The notes below the pieces were generated by a model that worked only from the letters and a program-made list of their open reading frames with translations, did no database searches and had not been told where the DNA came from. The translations under genes and the position numbers were made by a program. A DNA stretch of 64,000 bases from Comamonas suwonensis (GTDB lineage Bacteria > Pseudomonadota > Gammaproteobacteria > Burkholderiales > Burkholderiaceae_C), in NCBI RefSeq assembly GCF_012844455.2, contig NZ_JABBCQ020000002.1, positions 248,001-312,000 of the forward strand. The letters are read 5' to 3'. Below, one piece after another: positions 39,268-51,710 of the stretch (its first letter is position 1; every line of letters begins with the position of its first letter).

Positions 39268-39570
39268 ATTCGTCTATTTTCGCCGTTTGCCGTGCAGCGC
39301 GGCATTGCGCGGGCTTTGCCGCAGCCACAGCAGGGTGCGATGAACGCTTCTTGAAGTCCAAAATGGCATGCAATTTTTGGTAAGTCACCACTTGCTACTG
39401 GCTTGGCTAGCACACGCCTTGATGCCCCTGATGTCGGTATCTACCTAAGCCCCCCGCCTTCGCATACGCCTATGATGGGGGTCTTGCTATTGAAATGCTG
39501 CGGTCACCGGCAGGCCCGCCTCGCTCGCTTGCCATGACAGTTATAGCGCTGGGTGCTCCGCGGCCCCTGT
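39268..39570. other. Intergenic gap, divergent DHH and M20 genes
   Basis: No clear promoter or RNA. A 21-residue frame (39472-39537, MMGVLLLKCCGHRQARLARLP) ends 33 bases before the M20 gene and could be a leader peptide, but it has no good ribosome-binding site. Confidence 0.3.
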
Positions 39571-40767
39571 ATGCGATCTACTCCCGATATCACACCTCAC
39601 CTCGGCACCTTGCTCAGTTTCCGTCGCGATCTGCACGCAAATCCTGAGCTCAAGTACGAAGAGCACCGCACAGGCGACAAAGTCGCCGCATACCTCACAG
39701 CCCTCGGTCTGACCGTGCACCGGGGCCTGGGACAGACTGGCATCGTCGCCAGCATTTACGGCAAGGGCCGCAGCAAGGACAACCCCGGTCGCAGCATCGG
39801 TATCCGCGCCGACATGGACGCCCTGCCCGTCACGGAAATCAACACCTTCGGCCACATCAGCCAGAACAAGGGCCGCATGCATGCCTGCGGTCACGACGGT
39901 CATACCACCATGCTGCTGGGCGCAGCGACCACGCTGGCGCAGCACCCCGACTTTGATGGCACGGTGCACCTGATCTTCCAACCCGCCGAAGAAGGCGGAG
40001 CGGGTGCCAAGGCCATGATGGACGACGGCCTGTTCGAGAGATTCCCCTGCGAAGCCGTGTTTGCGCTGCACAACTGGCCCTCGCTTCCCGCAGGTCAAAT
40101 GGCCGTGCGCGTGGGCCCCATCATGGCCTCCACGCTGCGCTTTCAGATCAAGGTCCACGGCAAGGGCGGCCATGCGGCCATGCCCCACACCACGCTGGAC
40201 CCGATTCCCGTGGCCTGCGCCATCGTGACCCAGCTGCAGACCCTGGTTTCGCGCAGCACCGATCCGCTGGACTCGGCCGTGCTCACCGTAGGCAAGATCA
40301 CCAGTGGCACCGTGGAAAACATCATTCCCGATGACGCCATCATTGCGGGCACCGTGCGCACCTTGAAGAAGGAGACGCGCGAGATGTTTATCGAGGGTCT
40401 CAAGCGCATCAGCAGCCATGTCGCCGCCGCCCATCTGTGCACCGCCGAGTTCACGCTGCGTCCCGGCTCCTACCCCAATACCACCAACCACGCCAGAGAA
40501 GCCAAGTTCATGGCTGCCGTGATGCGTGAAGTGGTCGGCAATGACAACGCATTTGACGACGTGCTGCCCGCCATGACCTCCGAAGACTTCGGCTTCATGC
40601 TCGAAGCCGTGCCCGGCGCCTATGGCTGGATTGGCAATGCCAAGGGCGACCAGCCCGGCGTGAGCCTGCACAACCCGGCCTACGACTTCAACGATGACAA
40701 CATCGGTCGCGGCTCCAAGTTCTGGGACTTGCTGGCACGTCGCTACTTCGAGCAGCCAGCCGCTTAA
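39571..40767 (+). CDS. M20 family amidohydrolase (hippurate-hydrolase type)
   Basis: A 398-residue metal-dependent amidase. 'LLSFRRDLHANPELKYEEHRTGDKVAAYL' starts the family; metal-site blocks are 'IRADMDALPVTEIN', 'MHACGHDGHTTMLLGAA' (Cys and His) and 'FQPAEEGGAGAKAMMDDGLF' (Glu pair). 'KVHGKGGHAAMPHTTLDPI' is the dimer-domain His motif. Such enzymes cleave N-acyl amino acids. ATG 39571 is preferred over an upstream GTG. A GC-rich hairpin with T5 follows the stop. Confidence 0.93.
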   Translation: MRSTPDITPHLGTLLSFRRDLHANPELKYEEHRTGDKVAAYLTALGLTVHRGLGQTGIVASIYGKGRSKDNPGRSIGIRADMDALPVTEINTFGHISQNKGRMHACGHDGHTTMLLGAATTLAQHPDFDGTVHLIFQPAEEGGAGAKAMMDDGLFERFPCEAVFALHNWPSLPAGQMAVRVGPIMASTLRFQIKVHGKGGHAAMPHTTLDPIPVACAIVTQLQTLVSRSTDPLDSAVLTVGKITSGTVENIIPDDAIIAGTVRTLKKETREMFIEGLKRISSHVAAAHLCTAEFTLRPGSYPNTTNHAREAKFMAAVMREVVGNDNAFDDVLPAMTSEDFGFMLEAVPGAYGWIGNAKGDQPGVSLHNPAYDFNDDNIGRGSKFWDLLARRYFEQPAA

Positions 40768-40800: not shown

Positions 40801-40832
40801 AGCCCGCATCCAGCAATGGGTGCGGGCTTTTT
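40801..40832 (+). terminator. Intrinsic terminator after M20 gene
   Basis: AGCCCGCA (40801-40808) pairs with TGCGGGCT (40821-40828) and is followed by TTTTT. Confidence 0.82.
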
Positions 40833-43129
40833 CATGTCTTTTCAGCGGCAGATTGAGTACCGCCTTGGTCAACGCCCAGCACCTTGGACAGCCACTCCTG
40901 CTCTGGCAGGGGCTTGCCGAGCAGCATGCCTTGCAAAACGATGTCCGGGTTCCATTGCGTGAGCTGCAGCGCCTGCTCAGACAACTCCACCCCTTCAGCC
41001 ACGACCCGCAGTTGCAGGCGGCGCGCCATCAGCAGCATGGCCTCAACCAAGGCGGCATCTTTCTCTGATCGGTGGCTGCCGCTCACAAAGCTCTGGTCAA
41101 TCTTGAGCTCCTGAATCGGCAGGCGCTGCAAGCTGTACATGCTGGAGTAGCCGGTACCAAAGTCATCCAGAGAAGCCTCTATGCCCATGCGGGTCAGCGC
41201 CTCGATGCGCGTGCGGGCCTGATCAAGATCACGCACCACCGCGCCTTCGGTAATTTCCAGCGTCAGCTGGTGCGGATTGGCACCGGTCTCTTGCAACACC
41301 TGCTCCAGCGATGACATGAAGTCCTCATGCCCGAACTGAAAAGCGCTGACGTTGACCGACAGCCGCAGCCCGCGCCCGGCCAGTGCGGGCGTTGCCAGCA
41401 GCAAGCAGGCCCGGCGCAGAACCCAGTCACCCAGCCGCACGATCAGCTCAGACTCCTCTGCTACCGGAATGAACTCCGCCGGGCTGACCAGCCCCCACTT
41501 CGGGTGCTGCCAGCGCACCAGCACTTCAGCCCCCACGCAGCGGCCGCGTGCATCGGCCTGGGTCTGCAGATACATGCGCAACTCCCCCTGGGGGATGCCG
41601 TTGTGCAAGTCTTTGGCGATGCGCACGCGGCGGTGCACATCCTGCGCCATGCGGGGCTCAAACAGCACCAGACTGCCCGGCCCTTTTTGCTTGGCCTCGT
41701 GCAGAGCCACACTGGCAAAACGCAGCGCGTCATTGCCATTGCCACCACGGCTGGCGGGCTCCAGCACCACCCCGCCCATACAGCAGCTGACCAGCTCGGT
41801 TTCCACCCAGCTATTGAGACTGAAGGGCTTTTGCAAGGCCTTCTTCAAGGTGTGCGCATATTGCCGCAGTTGCTCTTCCACCCCCTCTGCATGAGGGTGC
41901 AAGCTAGCAAAAACAATAGCAAACTCAGCAGCCGCAATCCGCGCTATCCAGGTATCGTCGGGCAGAACCTCCACCAGTCTGGCTCCCATCGCCTGCACCA
42001 GTTCATCGCTGTGCTGCATGCCATGCACATCGTTGAACACAGAGAAGCGGTCCACATCCAGCAACAGCAAACCATGGCAGTCGCCCTGCTGGGTATGAAT
42101 GAGCTCGCGCAGGTGCAAGGTGAGCGAATGGCGGTTTGGCAGGCCGGTGAGCGAATCCAGATAGACCAGATCGTGAATATGGCGCTCTGCCAGCACGCGC
42201 TCGGACAAGTCGCGCTTGAGTTCCACGTAGTTGACGACCTCGCCCTGTGGCGTGCGAATGGGCACGACCAGTAAGGATTCACGCAGCGCCTCACCATTGC
42301 TGGCGCGATTGGTCATCTCTCCGCGCCAGATCGTGCCCGAGGCCAGCTGCGCCAGCGCACGCTGACGGCTGCCAAGGTCCATGCCAATGGTAGAAACCAG
42401 TTCAGTGGACTGGCCCAACACCTGCTCGCGCTTGTAGCCAGAGCGGACCAGAAAGGCATCGTTGACATAGACCACCTTGAGCTCGGTATCGGTGATAACG
42501 ATGCTCTCAGGGTTTTGCTGGACTGCGAGGTAGAACTTGCGCAGCTCATTCTGGCTGGCTTGAAGAGTGGCCAGCATTGCCTGCCCTTTTTGCACCCGGC
42601 GGCCAAGAATTAATCGCGCCTGCAGGCTGATCATCAGCACCAGCACCAGCATGCCCGGCACATAAATCAAACCCATCTGCGCTGCCGTGGACTGCATGGC
42701 TGCAGGGCGGTCGATCATCGGAAAAAACCACCAGAAAACACCCAGAGCCGTAATAGACGCCGCAAACATCAGCAATGAAGCACGCAGCCCCAACATCCAG
42801 ACCGCAATCACCAGCCAGGCCGGAAAAGCAATCACCGCCGAGCTGTAAAAGCCGCCAGCACGCCAAACCAGCAGCAAGCTCAGCAGCCAGTGCCCCCAGA
42901 CAAAGCAGCGCACCACCCAATCCCACTGCCTGGCGCGCGCCAGTCCCATGCACACCAGTGACAGCACCGTGATGGCCAGCGTAATGACCATTACCTGAGG
43001 ATCAATGGAAGGGCTGAGCCACCCCACCAGCGTCATCAATGCGCCAAGACCCAGCATCCACAGGCAGCCCAGCCACACCATGCGCCGCATGGGTAAGCGG
43101 TATCCGGCCTCGACAAAATGACGCTGCAT
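40832..43129 (-). CDS. Membrane PAS-GGDEF(degenerate)-EAL protein
   Basis: A 765-residue signalling protein. About six membrane helices fill residues 15-185, a PAS domain follows ('VQQNPESIVITDTELKVVYVNDAF'), then a GGDEF domain whose signature has become 'RIAAAEFAIVF', so cyclase activity is unlikely. The EAL domain keeps catalytic motifs: 'GAEVLVRWQHPKWG' (Glu), 'LEITEGAV', 'DDFGTGYSS', 'LKIDQSFV', 'VAEGVE' and 'QGMLLGKPLP'. It should be a c-di-GMP phosphodiesterase controlled by a membrane sensor. Its upstream neighbour is a tandem paralogue with the same layout. Confidence 0.9.
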   Translation of the reverse strand: MQRHFVEAGYRLPMRRMVWLGCLWMLGLGALMTLVGWLSPSIDPQVMVITLAITVLSLVCMGLARARQWDWVVRCFVWGHWLLSLLLVWRAGGFYSSAVIAFPAWLVIAVWMLGLRASLLMFAASITALGVFWWFFPMIDRPAAMQSTAAQMGLIYVPGMLVLVLMISLQARLILGRRVQKGQAMLATLQASQNELRKFYLAVQQNPESIVITDTELKVVYVNDAFLVRSGYKREQVLGQSTELVSTIGMDLGSRQRALAQLASGTIWRGEMTNRASNGEALRESLLVVPIRTPQGEVVNYVELKRDLSERVLAERHIHDLVYLDSLTGLPNRHSLTLHLRELIHTQQGDCHGLLLLDVDRFSVFNDVHGMQHSDELVQAMGARLVEVLPDDTWIARIAAAEFAIVFASLHPHAEGVEEQLRQYAHTLKKALQKPFSLNSWVETELVSCCMGGVVLEPASRGGNGNDALRFASVALHEAKQKGPGSLVLFEPRMAQDVHRRVRIAKDLHNGIPQGELRMYLQTQADARGRCVGAEVLVRWQHPKWGLVSPAEFIPVAEESELIVRLGDWVLRRACLLLATPALAGRGLRLSVNVSAFQFGHEDFMSSLEQVLQETGANPHQLTLEITEGAVVRDLDQARTRIEALTRMGIEASLDDFGTGYSSMYSLQRLPIQELKIDQSFVSGSHRSEKDAALVEAMLLMARRLQLRVVAEGVELSEQALQLTQWNPDIVLQGMLLGKPLPEQEWLSKVLGVDQGGTQSAAEKT

Positions 43130-43186: not shown

Positions 43187-44791
43187 TCAATCGGTCAAGC
43201 AACCTAGAACGGGATTGGGCCCAGGACTCTCAGTGTGAGCCAGAGCAGGATTGGCCATCCACTCCTCGGCTAGCACCGGGCGGCTGAACCAGTAGCCCTG
43301 GCACAGAATGCTGGGTTCAAGCGCTCGCAGCAGCTCGGCCTGCTCCAGCTCTTCCACGCCTTCGGCCACCACTCGCAGGCCTTTGGCCTTGGCCAGCATA
43401 AGGATGGCCTCAACCAGCACCCGGCTTTCTGCATTGACCCGCAGATCGCGGATAAAGACCTGATCGAGCTTGAGCTCCTGAATAGGCAAGCGCATCAGAT
43501 AGGCCAGTGATGAGTAGCCCGTCCCAAAATCATCCAGAGCGAACTGCACACCCAAGGCCACCAGGTTCACCATTTTCTGAATGGCGTGATCCACATCACT
43601 GAGCAGCAAGCTCTCTGTCACTTCCAGCGTCAACTTGCGCGGATCTATGCCAGAGCGCTGTATTGCACTTTTGACCTTCTCCACAAAGTCTGCATGCTGA
43701 AACTGCAGAGGGCTGACATTCACAGAGAGCGAATAGCCCGCGGCCCTCACACGTGGGTCGTTAAGCAGCAAGCACACCTGCTCCAGCATCCAGTCGCCCA
43801 GCGGCACAATCAGGCCGCAGTCCTCGGCCACGGGAATGAATTCACCGGGCGAGACCATGCCTTTTTCAGGATGCTGCCAGCGCACCAAAGCCTCCCCCCC
43901 CAGCACTCGACCATACATATCGACCTGGGGTTGCAAAAAGGCCCGCAACTGCCCCTCTTGAATCGCGACAAACAGCTCTTTTTCAATCGTCATGCGCCGC
44001 TGCATGGTCTCATCCAGTATTTCTGAATACGCATGGACCTGATCCCCCCCCTGATGGCGTGCCTGGCTCAAAGCCACCCCGGCGCGGCGCAGCACATGGT
44101 CGCCGCTGTCAGCCTTCAGCCCCTCCTCCACAAACGGGAACACGGTAAAGCCCACGCTGCAGGCCAGCTGCACCGCTTCAGCCCCCTCAGGCAAGCCGGT
44201 GACCTGAACAAGGCTCAGGCCGCGCTGCAGCTCCTGAGCCACTGCGTAGGCTCCGATACGGGCTTCATGCCGCGCCTTGCCAACGCCTTTAACCACCACG
44301 GCAAACCGGCTACCGCGGATACGGGCCATGATGGCGGCATCTGGCACCAGGGCTTTCATCCGGGCGACAAATGCCTGCAGCAAGGCATCTGTCCAGAGCC
44401 GGGAGCGGGAATTTTCAAAATTCTGAAAGCGGTCAATATCAACGATGAGCAAGCTGTGCCAGTCATGACCGTTGCGGTAGGGGCTGAAGTTGTTGGCGGT
44501 GCCATGCAGCTCCGCCTCACTCTGCGCTTCAAGCATTTCGGTCAACTCGTGCAGCAAGCCTTTGCGATTGGGTAACTGTGTCAGGCCGTCGTAGTGCTGC
44601 AAATGACGGATGCGGTTCTCCGCCTCCATCTTTTCCGTAATGTCCGTACGCGTTTCCACCAAAAAAGCCAGTTGATCGCTTTCGTCCAGCACGGGTGCCA
44701 CGCGCATCTCGTCAATCACAGTGGCCCCGTTCTCGCGCACGAGATACACCACATCTTCCCAGGTCTTGCCGACATTCAGCAGCGTCCACAT
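43187..44791 (-). CDS. C-terminal fragment: half PAS, degenerate GGDEF, EAL
   Basis: 534 residues from an ATG that directly follows the amber codon. The GGDEF signature is replaced by 'RIRGSRFAVVV'. The EAL motifs are complete: 'GGEALVRWQHPEKG', 'LEVTESLL', 'DDFGTGYSS', 'LKLDQVFI', 'VAEGVE', 'CQGYWFSRPV'. No ribosome-binding site precedes the ATG, so independent translation is doubtful; if it occurs, the product is a soluble phosphodiesterase. Confidence 0.75.
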   Translation of the reverse strand: MWTLLNVGKTWEDVVYLVRENGATVIDEMRVAPVLDESDQLAFLVETRTDITEKMEAENRIRHLQHYDGLTQLPNRKGLLHELTEMLEAQSEAELHGTANNFSPYRNGHDWHSLLIVDIDRFQNFENSRSRLWTDALLQAFVARMKALVPDAAIMARIRGSRFAVVVKGVGKARHEARIGAYAVAQELQRGLSLVQVTGLPEGAEAVQLACSVGFTVFPFVEEGLKADSGDHVLRRAGVALSQARHQGGDQVHAYSEILDETMQRRMTIEKELFVAIQEGQLRAFLQPQVDMYGRVLGGEALVRWQHPEKGMVSPGEFIPVAEDCGLIVPLGDWMLEQVCLLLNDPRVRAAGYSLSVNVSPLQFQHADFVEKVKSAIQRSGIDPRKLTLEVTESLLLSDVDHAIQKMVNLVALGVQFALDDFGTGYSSLAYLMRLPIQELKLDQVFIRDLRVNAESRVLVEAILMLAKAKGLRVVAEGVEELEQAELLRALEPSILCQGYWFSRPVLAEEWMANPALAHTESPGPNPVLGCLTD

Positions 44792-45526
44792 CTACACACG
44801 CTGGGCAGCCGTCATGCCTGCGCCGGTAACCCGGCGGCCATGCTCACTTTGGTCATCACGGCCCATGCGCTGACGATATTTCTGGTTGGCATAGACCTCA
44901 GCGCCCTTATCAACGTCGACGATCATGATGCTGGATGTGCTTTGCTCAACCGCTTGAAACAGCACATTCAGCTGACGCTTGTGCTGCTCAAGCGCAATCA
45001 AAGACGACTTCAACTCACTCAGGTGGCGCTTATAGCCCTGCACCATCAGCCAGGTGATGCCCAGCAAGAACAGCATGACATACGTGATCGATAGCACCTG
45101 CTCCCAGCGGGCATGCCCGTTATAGGCCAGCATCAGACCCAGCAGCATGACGCCAATGCCCGCCAGGCTCGCTTCAACAATGCCCAGCGTCCATGCCGCG
45201 AACACCACCAGCACGGTAAGAATCAGCACACTGACCGTCGGCTGAAACACCGTAATCCAAGCCAGAAAGGTCGTCAGAGCCAGCGCTCCGCTCACCAGGC
45301 AGCGCGCGCCCCAGCGCCAATAGCCACGCCAGGTCAGCAGCAAGGTGACTGCCGCAATGGCCGTGGCAATCGGCCCAGCCCAAACTCGCGCATGGCCAGG
45401 GTCCGCAAAAAGAGTGGCAAGCCAGCCCATGGAGCAATACCAGAGACTGACTAGCACCCCCCCCGCCCGGGCATAAGCCAAAGAAGGCGAATTGGCTTTT
45501 TCTATGGATGGCTCAAGTGTGAACAT
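44792..45526 (-). CDS. N-terminal fragment: membrane sensor plus half PAS
   Basis: 244 residues up to the amber codon. There are about six hydrophobic helices (from 'AGGVLVSLWYCSMGWLATLF' to 'YVMLFLLGITWLMVQGY'), a short coiled stretch ('LKSSLIALEQHKRQLNVLFQAVEQS') and the first half of a PAS domain. If it is made alone it would have no output domain. Confidence 0.7.
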   Translation of the reverse strand: MFTLEPSIEKANSPSLAYARAGGVLVSLWYCSMGWLATLFADPGHARVWAGPIATAIAAVTLLLTWRGYWRWGARCLVSGALALTTFLAWITVFQPTVSVLILTVLVVFAAWTLGIVEASLAGIGVMLLGLMLAYNGHARWEQVLSITYVMLFLLGITWLMVQGYKRHLSELKSSLIALEQHKRQLNVLFQAVEQSTSSIMIVDVDKGAEVYANQKYRQRMGRDDQSEHGRRVTGAGMTAAQRV

Positions 45527-48958: not shown

Positions 48959-50485
48959 TCAGCGCAGGCTGGCCGGGTCCATATAGCGCTGGCGCCACTC
49001 TTCAAAAGTCAGCGTGTCGGCAGCTTCAATGCGCTGCTGCGCGGCCACAGACTCTGCGCTCATCTGTTCAAAGCGTGCCTGCTGCTCAGCCGTCCAGGGC
49101 ATGGCCAGCAAGGTATCGCGCGCCTTGGCGGACTGGGTGGTCATGAACTCGATAAAGCGGCTGTCGTAGCCATCCACCAGCTCTTGCAGCACATGGGCCG
49201 AAGGCGTGGTCTGCGCGTTCTGCACACGGGCCAGCGCCTGCTCCAGCGCTGCGCTGTAATCACCGCTGTTGTGGGCCGCATCCAGCGCCTGTGCATAAGG
49301 GCGGCATTGCTGCAGCACTTCAAGTGCCCAGTCGGTCAGCCGCACCTGCTGGCCATTGCGCTCCAGCGTCAGACCTGGCTCACGGCCTTGCTCGGCGGCC
49401 AGATGCTGGTTGTGCTTGAGGGCATCAATCTCCTGCGGCGTATCCTGAGGGCTGTCTGTGTGCAGGCAGTGCAGCAAGAAGACGTCAATCATGCGCATGG
49501 TGGCCGGGGCAATGCCCACGGTTTCATACGGGTCGATGTCCATCAGGCGCACTTCCACATACTCCACGCCGCGCTCACGCAGGGCATGCAGCGGGCGCTC
49601 GCCGCTTTTCACGGTACGCTTGGGGCGAATGGTTCCGTAGAACTCGTTTTCGATCTGCAGCAGGCCGGTGCCCAGCTGGTTGTAGTCGCCACCGGGGTTG
49701 CGTACGCCCAGTTGCTCATAAGCCGCGTAAGGGCGGGTCAGCGCTTCGTGAAGCGAATCGGCATAGCCTTCCAGCCCGTTGTAGCTGACGCAGATGGTGG
49801 ACTGGGCATCGCTCTGATAGCCCAGTCGCCCCATGCGCAGCGATGTGGCATAGGGCAGATACAGCGCGTCCTTGCCATCGCCGAGCGGCTGCAGGCGGTG
49901 CTCGCGCCCTTCCACAAAGCTGGGGCACAGCGCAGGCGATGCACCATACAGGTACAGCAGCACAAAGGCATTGCGACGGAAGTTGCGAATCAGCGCAAAA
50001 TACTGATCGCTAGTCACACCGGGCAGCGACCAGTTGTAGTGAATGCCGGAAATGGTCTGCATGCGGCGGCCATAGCGGTGACCCAGACCCATGCGGTACA
50101 CGCTCTTGGAGCGGCCCGAGTGCGAGCTGCCGTAGCGGCCCAGGGGAATGGTTTCATCCGTGGGCAAGCGGCAGGGCATGCTGGAGTTCCACATCAGCTC
50201 ACCGCTCTCGCTCAAATTGCGCAGCACAAACTGGTGGACTTCGGTCAGCTCATCCAGACACTCCTGCACGCCCAGACGCGCGCCGGTAATGAGTTCAAGC
50301 TGCGACTCGCTGTAATCGGTGGTGATGTGGGGGTGCGTGAGAGCCGAGCCCAGCTCGGCCGGGTGCGGCGTCAGGGCCAGCGAGCCTGTGCCCAGTGCCC
50401 GCAATCCCTCTTTCTCGATACCGCGACGAATGCCCAGCAGCCGCTCGGCTGAAGGCATGTCCACGGTGGCCTGCGATGTCTTCAT
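48959..50485 (-). CDS. gshA: Glutamate-cysteine ligase
   Basis: A 508-residue enzyme for the first step of glutathione synthesis. 'LLGIRRGIEKEGLRALG' is the start of the E. coli-type (class 1) family; 'TTDYSESQLELITG', 'GLGHRYGRRMQTISGIHYNWSLP' and 'VRLMDIDPYETVGI' hold substrate and metal residues. Length matches (E. coli 518). It has its own terminator and a long upstream gap, so it is probably a single-gene unit. Confidence 0.96.
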   Translation of the reverse strand: MKTSQATVDMPSAERLLGIRRGIEKEGLRALGTGSLALTPHPAELGSALTHPHITTDYSESQLELITGARLGVQECLDELTEVHQFVLRNLSESGELMWNSSMPCRLPTDETIPLGRYGSSHSGRSKSVYRMGLGHRYGRRMQTISGIHYNWSLPGVTSDQYFALIRNFRRNAFVLLYLYGASPALCPSFVEGREHRLQPLGDGKDALYLPYATSLRMGRLGYQSDAQSTICVSYNGLEGYADSLHEALTRPYAAYEQLGVRNPGGDYNQLGTGLLQIENEFYGTIRPKRTVKSGERPLHALRERGVEYVEVRLMDIDPYETVGIAPATMRMIDVFLLHCLHTDSPQDTPQEIDALKHNQHLAAEQGREPGLTLERNGQQVRLTDWALEVLQQCRPYAQALDAAHNSGDYSAALEQALARVQNAQTTPSAHVLQELVDGYDSRFIEFMTTQSAKARDTLLAMPWTAEQQARFEQMSAESVAAQQRIEAADTLTFEEWRQRYMDPASLR

Positions 50486-50798
50486 TCTTGTTTACCTTAT
50501 TGGTGAAGACGCTGACGACAAACTTCGTCTGCCCAATCGCGCCCAGTCGGCGAATGATAGAGAAACCGGACCAAACGCGATGGCGGCTGGCCGCTTAACC
50601 ACGTTTTTCGGCCTGTTGAAGCGCATAAAGCATGCGCACGAGCCAGAAAATTGTCAGTTTAATCAGCAACAAAAAGAGAGCACCTGCTCACTCCCACACA
50701 GAAAAAGCCCTCACAAGAGGGCTTTTTTCAGCTGTGCTAATCGACTATTGATGCACTTCTTACACCGCCAAAGCACGAGCAGATCAGTACAAACCGGC
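50486..50798. other. Gap between gshA and the SDR gene
   Basis: This 313-base gap holds the terminator at 50702-50728 and presumably the gshA promoter. No gene or repeat copy was recognised. Confidence 0.45.
50702..50728. terminator. Intrinsic terminator of the SDR gene
   Basis: AAAAAGCCCTC-acaa-GAGGGCTTTTTT: an 11-bp stem with T-runs on both strands, about 70 bases beyond the SDR gene end. Confidence 0.93.
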
Positions 50799-51710
50799 TC
50801 AATGGCCGTGCGCCTTCATGGCCTTGCCCACTTCAACCTGCCCCTGCACAGCGCCACTGCCCGGCACTTGCTGGCCCTCGCTGGCCGTGACTTCAGCCAG
50901 ACGCGTAGCCAGCTCATCGGGCACCTGATCGCCCATGCCCAGGTAGACACCTTCGGTCATGGTGATATGCGCAGCCTCAAACCCACCCGCACCGGCGCAG
51001 AGAATGGTGCGCGTGGGGGCAGTTTCATGGGCCAGCACCAGCATGGCGGGTACCACGGCTTCGGGCTTCAGGGCCTCAAGCACGGGCTCAGGCAGCAGGC
51101 CCGCCGTCATGCGCGTGGCCGCCGTGGGCGCCAATGCATTGACGCGGATATTGCTCTTGGCGCCTTCAATGGCCAGCGTCTGCATTAAGCCCACCTGCGC
51201 CAGCTTGGCCGCACCGTAGTTGGCCTGACCAAAATTGCCATACAGGCCCGTGGACGAGGTCGTCATCACGATGCGGCCATAGTTCTGCTCTTGCATATAC
51301 GGCCACACGGCCTTGCAGCAGTGGGCAGCGCCCATCAGGTGCACATCGACAACGAGGCGAAAGTCCGCCATGTCCATCTTGGCAAAGCTCTTGTCACGAA
51401 GAATGCCTGCGTTGTTGACCAGAATATCCACGCGGCCCCAGGCCGCGATGGCCTGTTTGACCATGGCCTGCACGGCGTCAAAGTCCGTCACCGATGCGGC
51501 ATTGGCAATCGCCTCGCCACCTGCGGCGCGAATTTCATCGACCACTTTTTGCGCGGCAGTCGCCGAGCCCCCCGAACCATCGACCGAGCCACCCAGATCG
51601 TTGACCAGCACTTTGGCACCGCGCCGGGCCAGCGCCAGCGCATGCAAACGCCCCAGACCACCACCCGCACCCGTCACGATAGCTACACGACCTTGAAAAT
51701 CCATTGCCAT
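50799..51710 (-). CDS. SDR oxidoreductase, 3-hydroxyacyl-CoA dehydrogenase-like
   Basis: A 303-residue short-chain dehydrogenase. The cofactor site is 'AIVTGAGGGLGRLHALALARRGAKVLVNDLGGS', with 'NNAGILRDKSFAKM', catalytic Ser in 'TTSSTGLYGNFGQANYGAAK' and the Tyr/Lys pair. This pattern is the peroxisomal multifunctional enzyme 2 (HSD17B4) type used in fatty acid or steroid side-chain oxidation. Residues 240-303 extend beyond the SDR core. ATG 51710 has AAGGAG nine bases upstream. Exact substrate unknown. Confidence 0.9.
   Translation of the reverse strand: MAMDFQGRVAIVTGAGGGLGRLHALALARRGAKVLVNDLGGSVDGSGGSATAAQKVVDEIRAAGGEAIANAASVTDFDAVQAMVKQAIAAWGRVDILVNNAGILRDKSFAKMDMADFRLVVDVHLMGAAHCCKAVWPYMQEQNYGRIVMTTSSTGLYGNFGQANYGAAKLAQVGLMQTLAIEGAKSNIRVNALAPTAATRMTAGLLPEPVLEALKPEAVVPAMLVLAHETAPTRTILCAGAGGFEAAHITMTEGVYLGMGDQVPDELATRLAEVTASEGQQVPGSGAVQGQVEVGKAMKAHGH

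Follow-up and report, generated by a model that had tools for sequence, protein, structure and literature searches.

The closest described cases are interrupted or lost genes of c-di-GMP metabolism. In Shigella flexneri, the degenerate c-di-GMP genes dgcE, dgcQ, dgcN, dgcM, and pdeR were shown experimentally to yield product, and the authors leave the route to this product open (PMC11327459). In Pseudomonas fluorescens, mutations in the PAS-GGDEF-EAL gene PFLU0185/bmo rise quickly in laboratory biofilms, and most of them are predicted to cause a loss of function by introducing stops or by harming the phosphodiesterase or PAS part (PMC13101516). The GGDEF-EAL part of PA0285 (PipA) from Pseudomonas aeruginosa makes pGpG in vitro, and its complementation in the cell is weaker than that of full-length PA0285 (PMC10874727). 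Yersinia pestis has lost PDE2 (Rtn) and PDE3, and both losses are listed as having promoted flea biofilm (PMC7913351). More generally, in-frame stops are reported to be widespread in bacterial genes and to be mostly short-lived on the evolutionary scale (PMC7918605). For Comamonas, no paper on a nonsense mutation in an EAL gene was found in the open-licence literature, where the sole match for Comamonas pseudogenes with GGDEF concerns a Pseudomonas aeruginosa strain. A search of titles and starts of abstracts in the same literature for Comamonas c-di-GMP phosphodiesterases returned none on the gene described here among the matches listed.

In the analyzed 64,000-nucleotide stretch of Comamonas DNA (the window), a minus-strand gene for a membrane-PAS-GGDEF-EAL protein is interrupted by one amber codon. 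Judging from the relatives of this gene, we consider it probable (about 0.82) that the codon arose recently in a single strain of Comamonas, by a nonsense mutation that changed one base and turned CAG into TAG. Translated from 45526 to 43187, the frame has 780 codons, with the terminator counted, and one internal stop: the plus-strand letters CTA at 44792–44794 read as TAG in this frame, at codon 245, and the codon after it is ATG (44791–44789, minus strand). Both the single TAG in one continuous frame and the directly following ATG had been pointed out in the initial annotation, which gave no strand, and both were found as described. The features of the locus are as follows.

43187..45526, minus strand: whole gene frame of a membrane-PAS-GGDEF-EAL protein, 780 codons with the terminator and one internal TAG (translation, genome search, profile of the read-through protein)
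44792..44794, minus strand: in-frame TAG, codon 245, where the closest orthologue has CAG (translation, codon alignment)
44792..45526, minus strand: upstream open reading frame of 244 aa with hydrophobic segments (about residues 46–162) and the first half of PAS, stopping at the TAG (Pfam, hydropathy)
43187..44791, minus strand: downstream open reading frame of 534 aa from the ATG adjoining the TAG, with the remaining PAS, GGDEF, and EAL (Pfam; Shine-Dalgarno evidence before the ATG is weak)
44633..44929, minus strand: PAS domain, read-through residues 200–298, cut by the TAG (Pfam PAS_9)
44042..44596, minus strand: GGDEF domain, read-through residues 311–495, signature RGSRF (Pfam, motif check)
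43277..43978, minus strand: EAL domain, read-through residues 517–750, with the usual motifs (Pfam, motif check, structure-chain alignment)
40832..43129, minus strand: intact tandem paralogue of 765 aa, PAS-GGDEF(AAAEF)-EAL, 35% identical (list of open reading frames, Pfam, motif check)

A frame check over 43187–45526 revealed no frameshift accompanying the TAG. The stop-split frame is more than a chance arrangement, because long open frames lie on both sides, the third-position G+C matches (0.69 before and 0.70 after the TAG), and an unbroken orthologue aligns across the stop. Of the 779 codons (the TAG itself counted), 197 are one base away from a stop, 63 of these by a transition, and the TAG differs from the CAG of the closest orthologue by a single base, which is also a transition. 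Scans for repeats and promoters detected the tandem paralogy alone and nothing bearing on the stop.

The upstream piece contains about five hydrophobic segments within residues 46–162 (19-residue Kyte-Doolittle means >1.6), and no Pfam family was found in its 244 amino acids at E 0.001. On the read-through protein, PAS_9 spans residues 200–298 with 27.3 bits, barely above the cut-off of 27, so that the TAG at codon 245 cuts the PAS domain near its middle, in line with the earlier description of a membrane part and half a PAS domain upstream of the stop. The PAS domain of the unbroken closest orthologue (from genome G029) scores 13.7 bits, which falls short of the Pfam cut-off; the broken copy is therefore not the more decayed one. 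In the downstream piece, GGDEF scored 58.1 bits and EAL (PF00563) 221.7 bits against a cut-off of 31.3. The GGDEF signature reads RGSRF and departs from the GGDEF/GGEEF signature of an active diguanylate cyclase, whereas the EAL motifs, which we take to be the catalytic ones, are present in order (EALVRW, SVNVS, LTLEVTES, DDFGTGYSS, ELKLDQ, VVAEGVE, and CQGYWFS), and the GGDEF-EAL part aligned with the solved GGDEF-EAL chain 5m3c. The reading of this part as the rest of PAS, a degenerate GGDEF, and a complete EAL was thus borne out. By its domains, the gene product is probably a membrane-anchored PAS-GGDEF-EAL phosphodiesterase of c-di-GMP. The best NCBIfam match was NF045675 (phosphodiesterase DibA) with 343.1 bits, scored on the downstream piece and not on the read-through protein, and likewise NF045675 with 388 bits for the tandem paralogue; neither is filed as DibA, because both scores are far under the equivalog cut-off of 980 bits. 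The C-terminal tail (window positions 43187–43234) is longer than in G029, where the terminator comes earlier (779 versus 766 codons).

Compared with the described systems, the locus resembles the Shigella genes in that a premature stop precedes the catalytic part, with a Met a few codons later in some of those genes, and in that the genome has many c-di-GMP genes. It differs in that the Shigella genes mainly encode GGDEF cyclases and some carry other lesions (an IS insertion and a frameshift in dgcE), whereas the gene studied here is of the EAL type and known from sequence alone (PMC11327459). PFLU0185/bmo is also a GGDEF-EAL gene with PAS that is hit by premature stops, but this likeness is one of domains, and the P. 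fluorescens mutations arose under laboratory selection with a known benefit, whereas our case is one natural genome (PMC13101516). PA0285 is likewise comparable by its domains as a membrane-anchored protein with PAS, GGDEF, and EAL, but its two transmembrane segments and two PAS domains contrast with the about five hydrophobic segments and one PAS match found here (PMC10874727). Finally, Yersinia pestis, by losing PDE2 and PDE3, is a lineage from which EAL-type phosphodiesterases disappeared naturally; those losses are listed as favourable to flea biofilm, whereas the stop described here is without known consequence (PMC7913351).

The genus was searched with 53 genomes, one per species and the own genome counted, and all 53 matched somewhere because GGDEF-EAL proteins are common. 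The closest orthologue, in G029, aligned over its full length with 77–78% identity and has CAG (glutamine) at codon 245, followed by the same ATG. At the position of the TAG, the other eight members of a nine-sequence alignment carry Q, E, S, E, D, E, K, and R, the R being that of the own paralogue, with an alignment around codon 245 that is approximate for the remoter homologues (32–37% identity). The stop was shared by none of these eight sequences from other species and the own paralogue, among which are homologues from Comamonas aquatica NBRC 14918 and Comamonas avium Sa2CVA6. The initial annotation had suggested such an alignment, and the sense codons found in all eight support the recent nonsense mutation that it had listed among its explanations. 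Among the best matches in the 13 top-scoring other genomes of the genus, only the G029 match was listed with an internal stop, and this TAA is the ordinary terminator of the G029 gene. A family-wide search of 399 genomes (profile of the downstream part, E 1e-120, three candidates scored per genome) found matches in 38, and the TAG or TGA stops listed for the three genomes G402, G192, and G333, which belong to other genera, were ordinary terminators as well; these candidates for a conserved stop were rejected. An origin from two separate genes, which had been named as an arrangement to look for in the orthologues, was ruled out: the closest relatives have a single gene in a single frame, except for one that is frameshifted elsewhere. 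This exception is the orthologue in G013, a 75% complete genome (L014:1303-3577), whose frameshift lies near residue 525, away from the TAG position, and may be an assembly error.

The pattern of substitutions was compared with G029 by the Nei-Gojobori method in a script of our own. The dN/dS ratio was 0.148 for the whole gene, with 0.198 upstream of the stop and 0.122 downstream of it, and was 0.094 in the final 264 codons with the EAL domain; the neighbouring gene had 0.122 over its first 482 codons. As the synonymous distance to G029 is high (dS about 0.9), these values mainly record the long shared past of the two genes and say less about the period after the stop appeared. In relative-rate counts, the branch of the broken gene had 19 changes versus 37 for G029 with C. 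aquatica as outgroup (p = 0.022, the branch studied here being the slower one), 24 versus 32 with C. avium (p = 0.35), and 19 versus 29 with the first 524 residues of the G013 orthologue (p = 0.19). Neither dN/dS nor the counts with these three outgroups gave any sign of relaxed constraint or acceleration on this branch, and both the absence of frameshifts and the substitution pattern bear out the earlier statement that the gene shows no further decay. The simplest reading of these comparisons would be that the stop is young, and the lack of acceleration would also fit a stop that does little harm.

The window belongs to a draft assembly of 4.72 Mb in 67 contigs, rated 100% complete with 0.08 contamination, and lies on a contig of 383870 bases. 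A comparison with the 85 kb of G029 that surround the gene (query frames of at least 120 aa, identity of at least 55%) gave 34 rows, with antisense frames counted, and nine of these rows had stops. When overlapping frames were reduced by rule to the one with the highest score, 17 frames remained, which cover the window from 37421 to about 59.2 kb. Only two of the 17 had stops within the match, namely this gene and the frame 39478–40764, and both stops of the latter (39535 and 39544) precede its own GTG start at 39553, so that this gene alone is interrupted between its start and its terminator. Its identity to G029 is 78%, compared with 84–97% for the other kept frames except one at 71% (50319–50933), which may be a spurious shadow frame. 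Within window positions 1–37420, no match to the 85 kb of G029 passed the limits, whereas the remainder up to about 59.2 kb matches well, and the gene order may differ from G029 in that first part.

These data bear on whether the strain may in fact have a sense codon and a working gene, the TAG being an assembly or base-call error. The draft state of the genome with its 67 contigs, the single base involved, and the constraint on the rest of the gene would agree with an error, but the length of the contig, the completeness and low contamination of the genome, and the absence of any other stop within a gene among the 17 syntenic frames, which indicates no general excess of errors and rules against general decay or poor assembly, make it unlikely. 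We regard as less likely still that the split gene is kept in use, with TAGATG ending a membrane piece and restarting a soluble, unregulated GGDEF-EAL phosphodiesterase. The ATG adjoins the stop, as in the Shigella-type degenerate genes defined by a start close after the stop, and the Shigella flexneri c-di-GMP genes with stops before GGDEF still yield product (PMC11327459). The GGDEF-EAL part of PA0285 alone turns c-di-GMP into pGpG in vitro (PMC10874727), and the EAL motifs of the gene studied here are intact. Nevertheless, the ATG is an internal Met codon common to G029, whose gene is unbroken, the product would keep half a PAS domain, and among the aligned relatives the arrangement was seen in this genome alone. 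The Shine-Dalgarno energy of the ATG is −2.5, a value equalled or bettered at 63% of the positions of the gene, while the in-frame GTG codons 259, 260, and 263 have energies of −4.2, −4.2, and −6.6; this measure is weak evidence, since the gene's own start, at 0.6, does no better. Given the Shigella precedent, restart downstream of the TAG is possible, and this part of the re-initiation idea in the initial annotation stands, whereas the ATG itself, shared with the closest relative and preceded by no notable ribosome-binding site, does not speak for it.

A regulated read-through, with the TAG decoded at a controlled level that switches the membrane enzyme on or off, had also been proposed, and we consider it the most improbable of the explanations. 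Bacterial in-frame stops followed by sequence under constraint have been described widely, among them a TAG/CAG case from Paenibacillus (PMC7918605), and the RNA around the stop could be structured: the 201 nt surrounding it fold with z = −1.8, 7 of 200 shuffled sequences being at least as good, and a 200-nt stretch folds at −80.0 kcal/mol compared with −63.9 in G029. The 60 nt directly 3′ of the stop, however, fold no better than in G029 (−13.5 versus −15.2 kcal/mol), so that the evidence for a structured read-through element is mixed and at best marginal. Moreover, no aligned homologue has the stop, release factor RF1 (prfA) is present (503.6 bits, cut-off 423.25), and no suppressor tRNA was found, with a CTA anticodon in none of the 68 tRNA matches of the genome. 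ARAGORN called 67 of these matches, all with ordinary anticodons; the remaining one (L100:1-111, contig C9 near 106805) is weak (34.5 bits), has a TTT anticodon by eye, and is perhaps a remnant of a tRNA-Lys. It is also very doubtful that TAGATG is being kept as a one-step, reversible rewiring into a membrane stub and a soluble, unregulated phosphodiesterase, with amber leak giving some full-length enzyme.

As had been noted before, the tandem paralogue is unbroken, with a single frame of 765 aa from 43129 to 40832. Its GGDEF signature is degenerate too (AAAEF) and its EAL motifs are kept, and the pair stands side by side in G029 as well. In the own genome, 15 matches to the read-through protein were found, this gene among them; ten of the others span GGDEF and EAL or most of both, the remaining four are short, and none of these 14 has an internal stop. 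Because of the ten other GGDEF-EAL matches in the genome, the loss of one such protein is likely tolerated.

Under a recent nonsense mutation, ribosomes would mostly stop at codon 245 and release a 244-aa membrane stub that lacks the catalytic domains, so that little or no full-length enzyme would be left. A small amount of GGDEF-EAL protein, detached from the membrane sensor, may arise by restart at the ATG or at the nearby in-frame GTG codons, and the 534-aa piece would, if it is produced, have an EAL domain that looks intact. The calculated masses are about 60 kDa for the restart product and about 86 kDa for the read-through protein. We would expect c-di-GMP to rise slightly, with the intact paralogue and the genome's other GGDEF-EAL proteins cushioning the effect. 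Such a mutation could rise by chance as well as by selection.

Most likely, the strain has thus lost, or retains at a reduced level, one phosphodiesterase-like protein of about eleven. With one nonsense codon, no second lesion, and sense codons in the relatives, the case would represent an ordinary gene loss caught early. If the downstream part is translated, it would add an EAL-type example to the Shigella cases in which c-di-GMP "pseudogenes" still work, and it would be a warning against declaring such genes dead from annotation alone.
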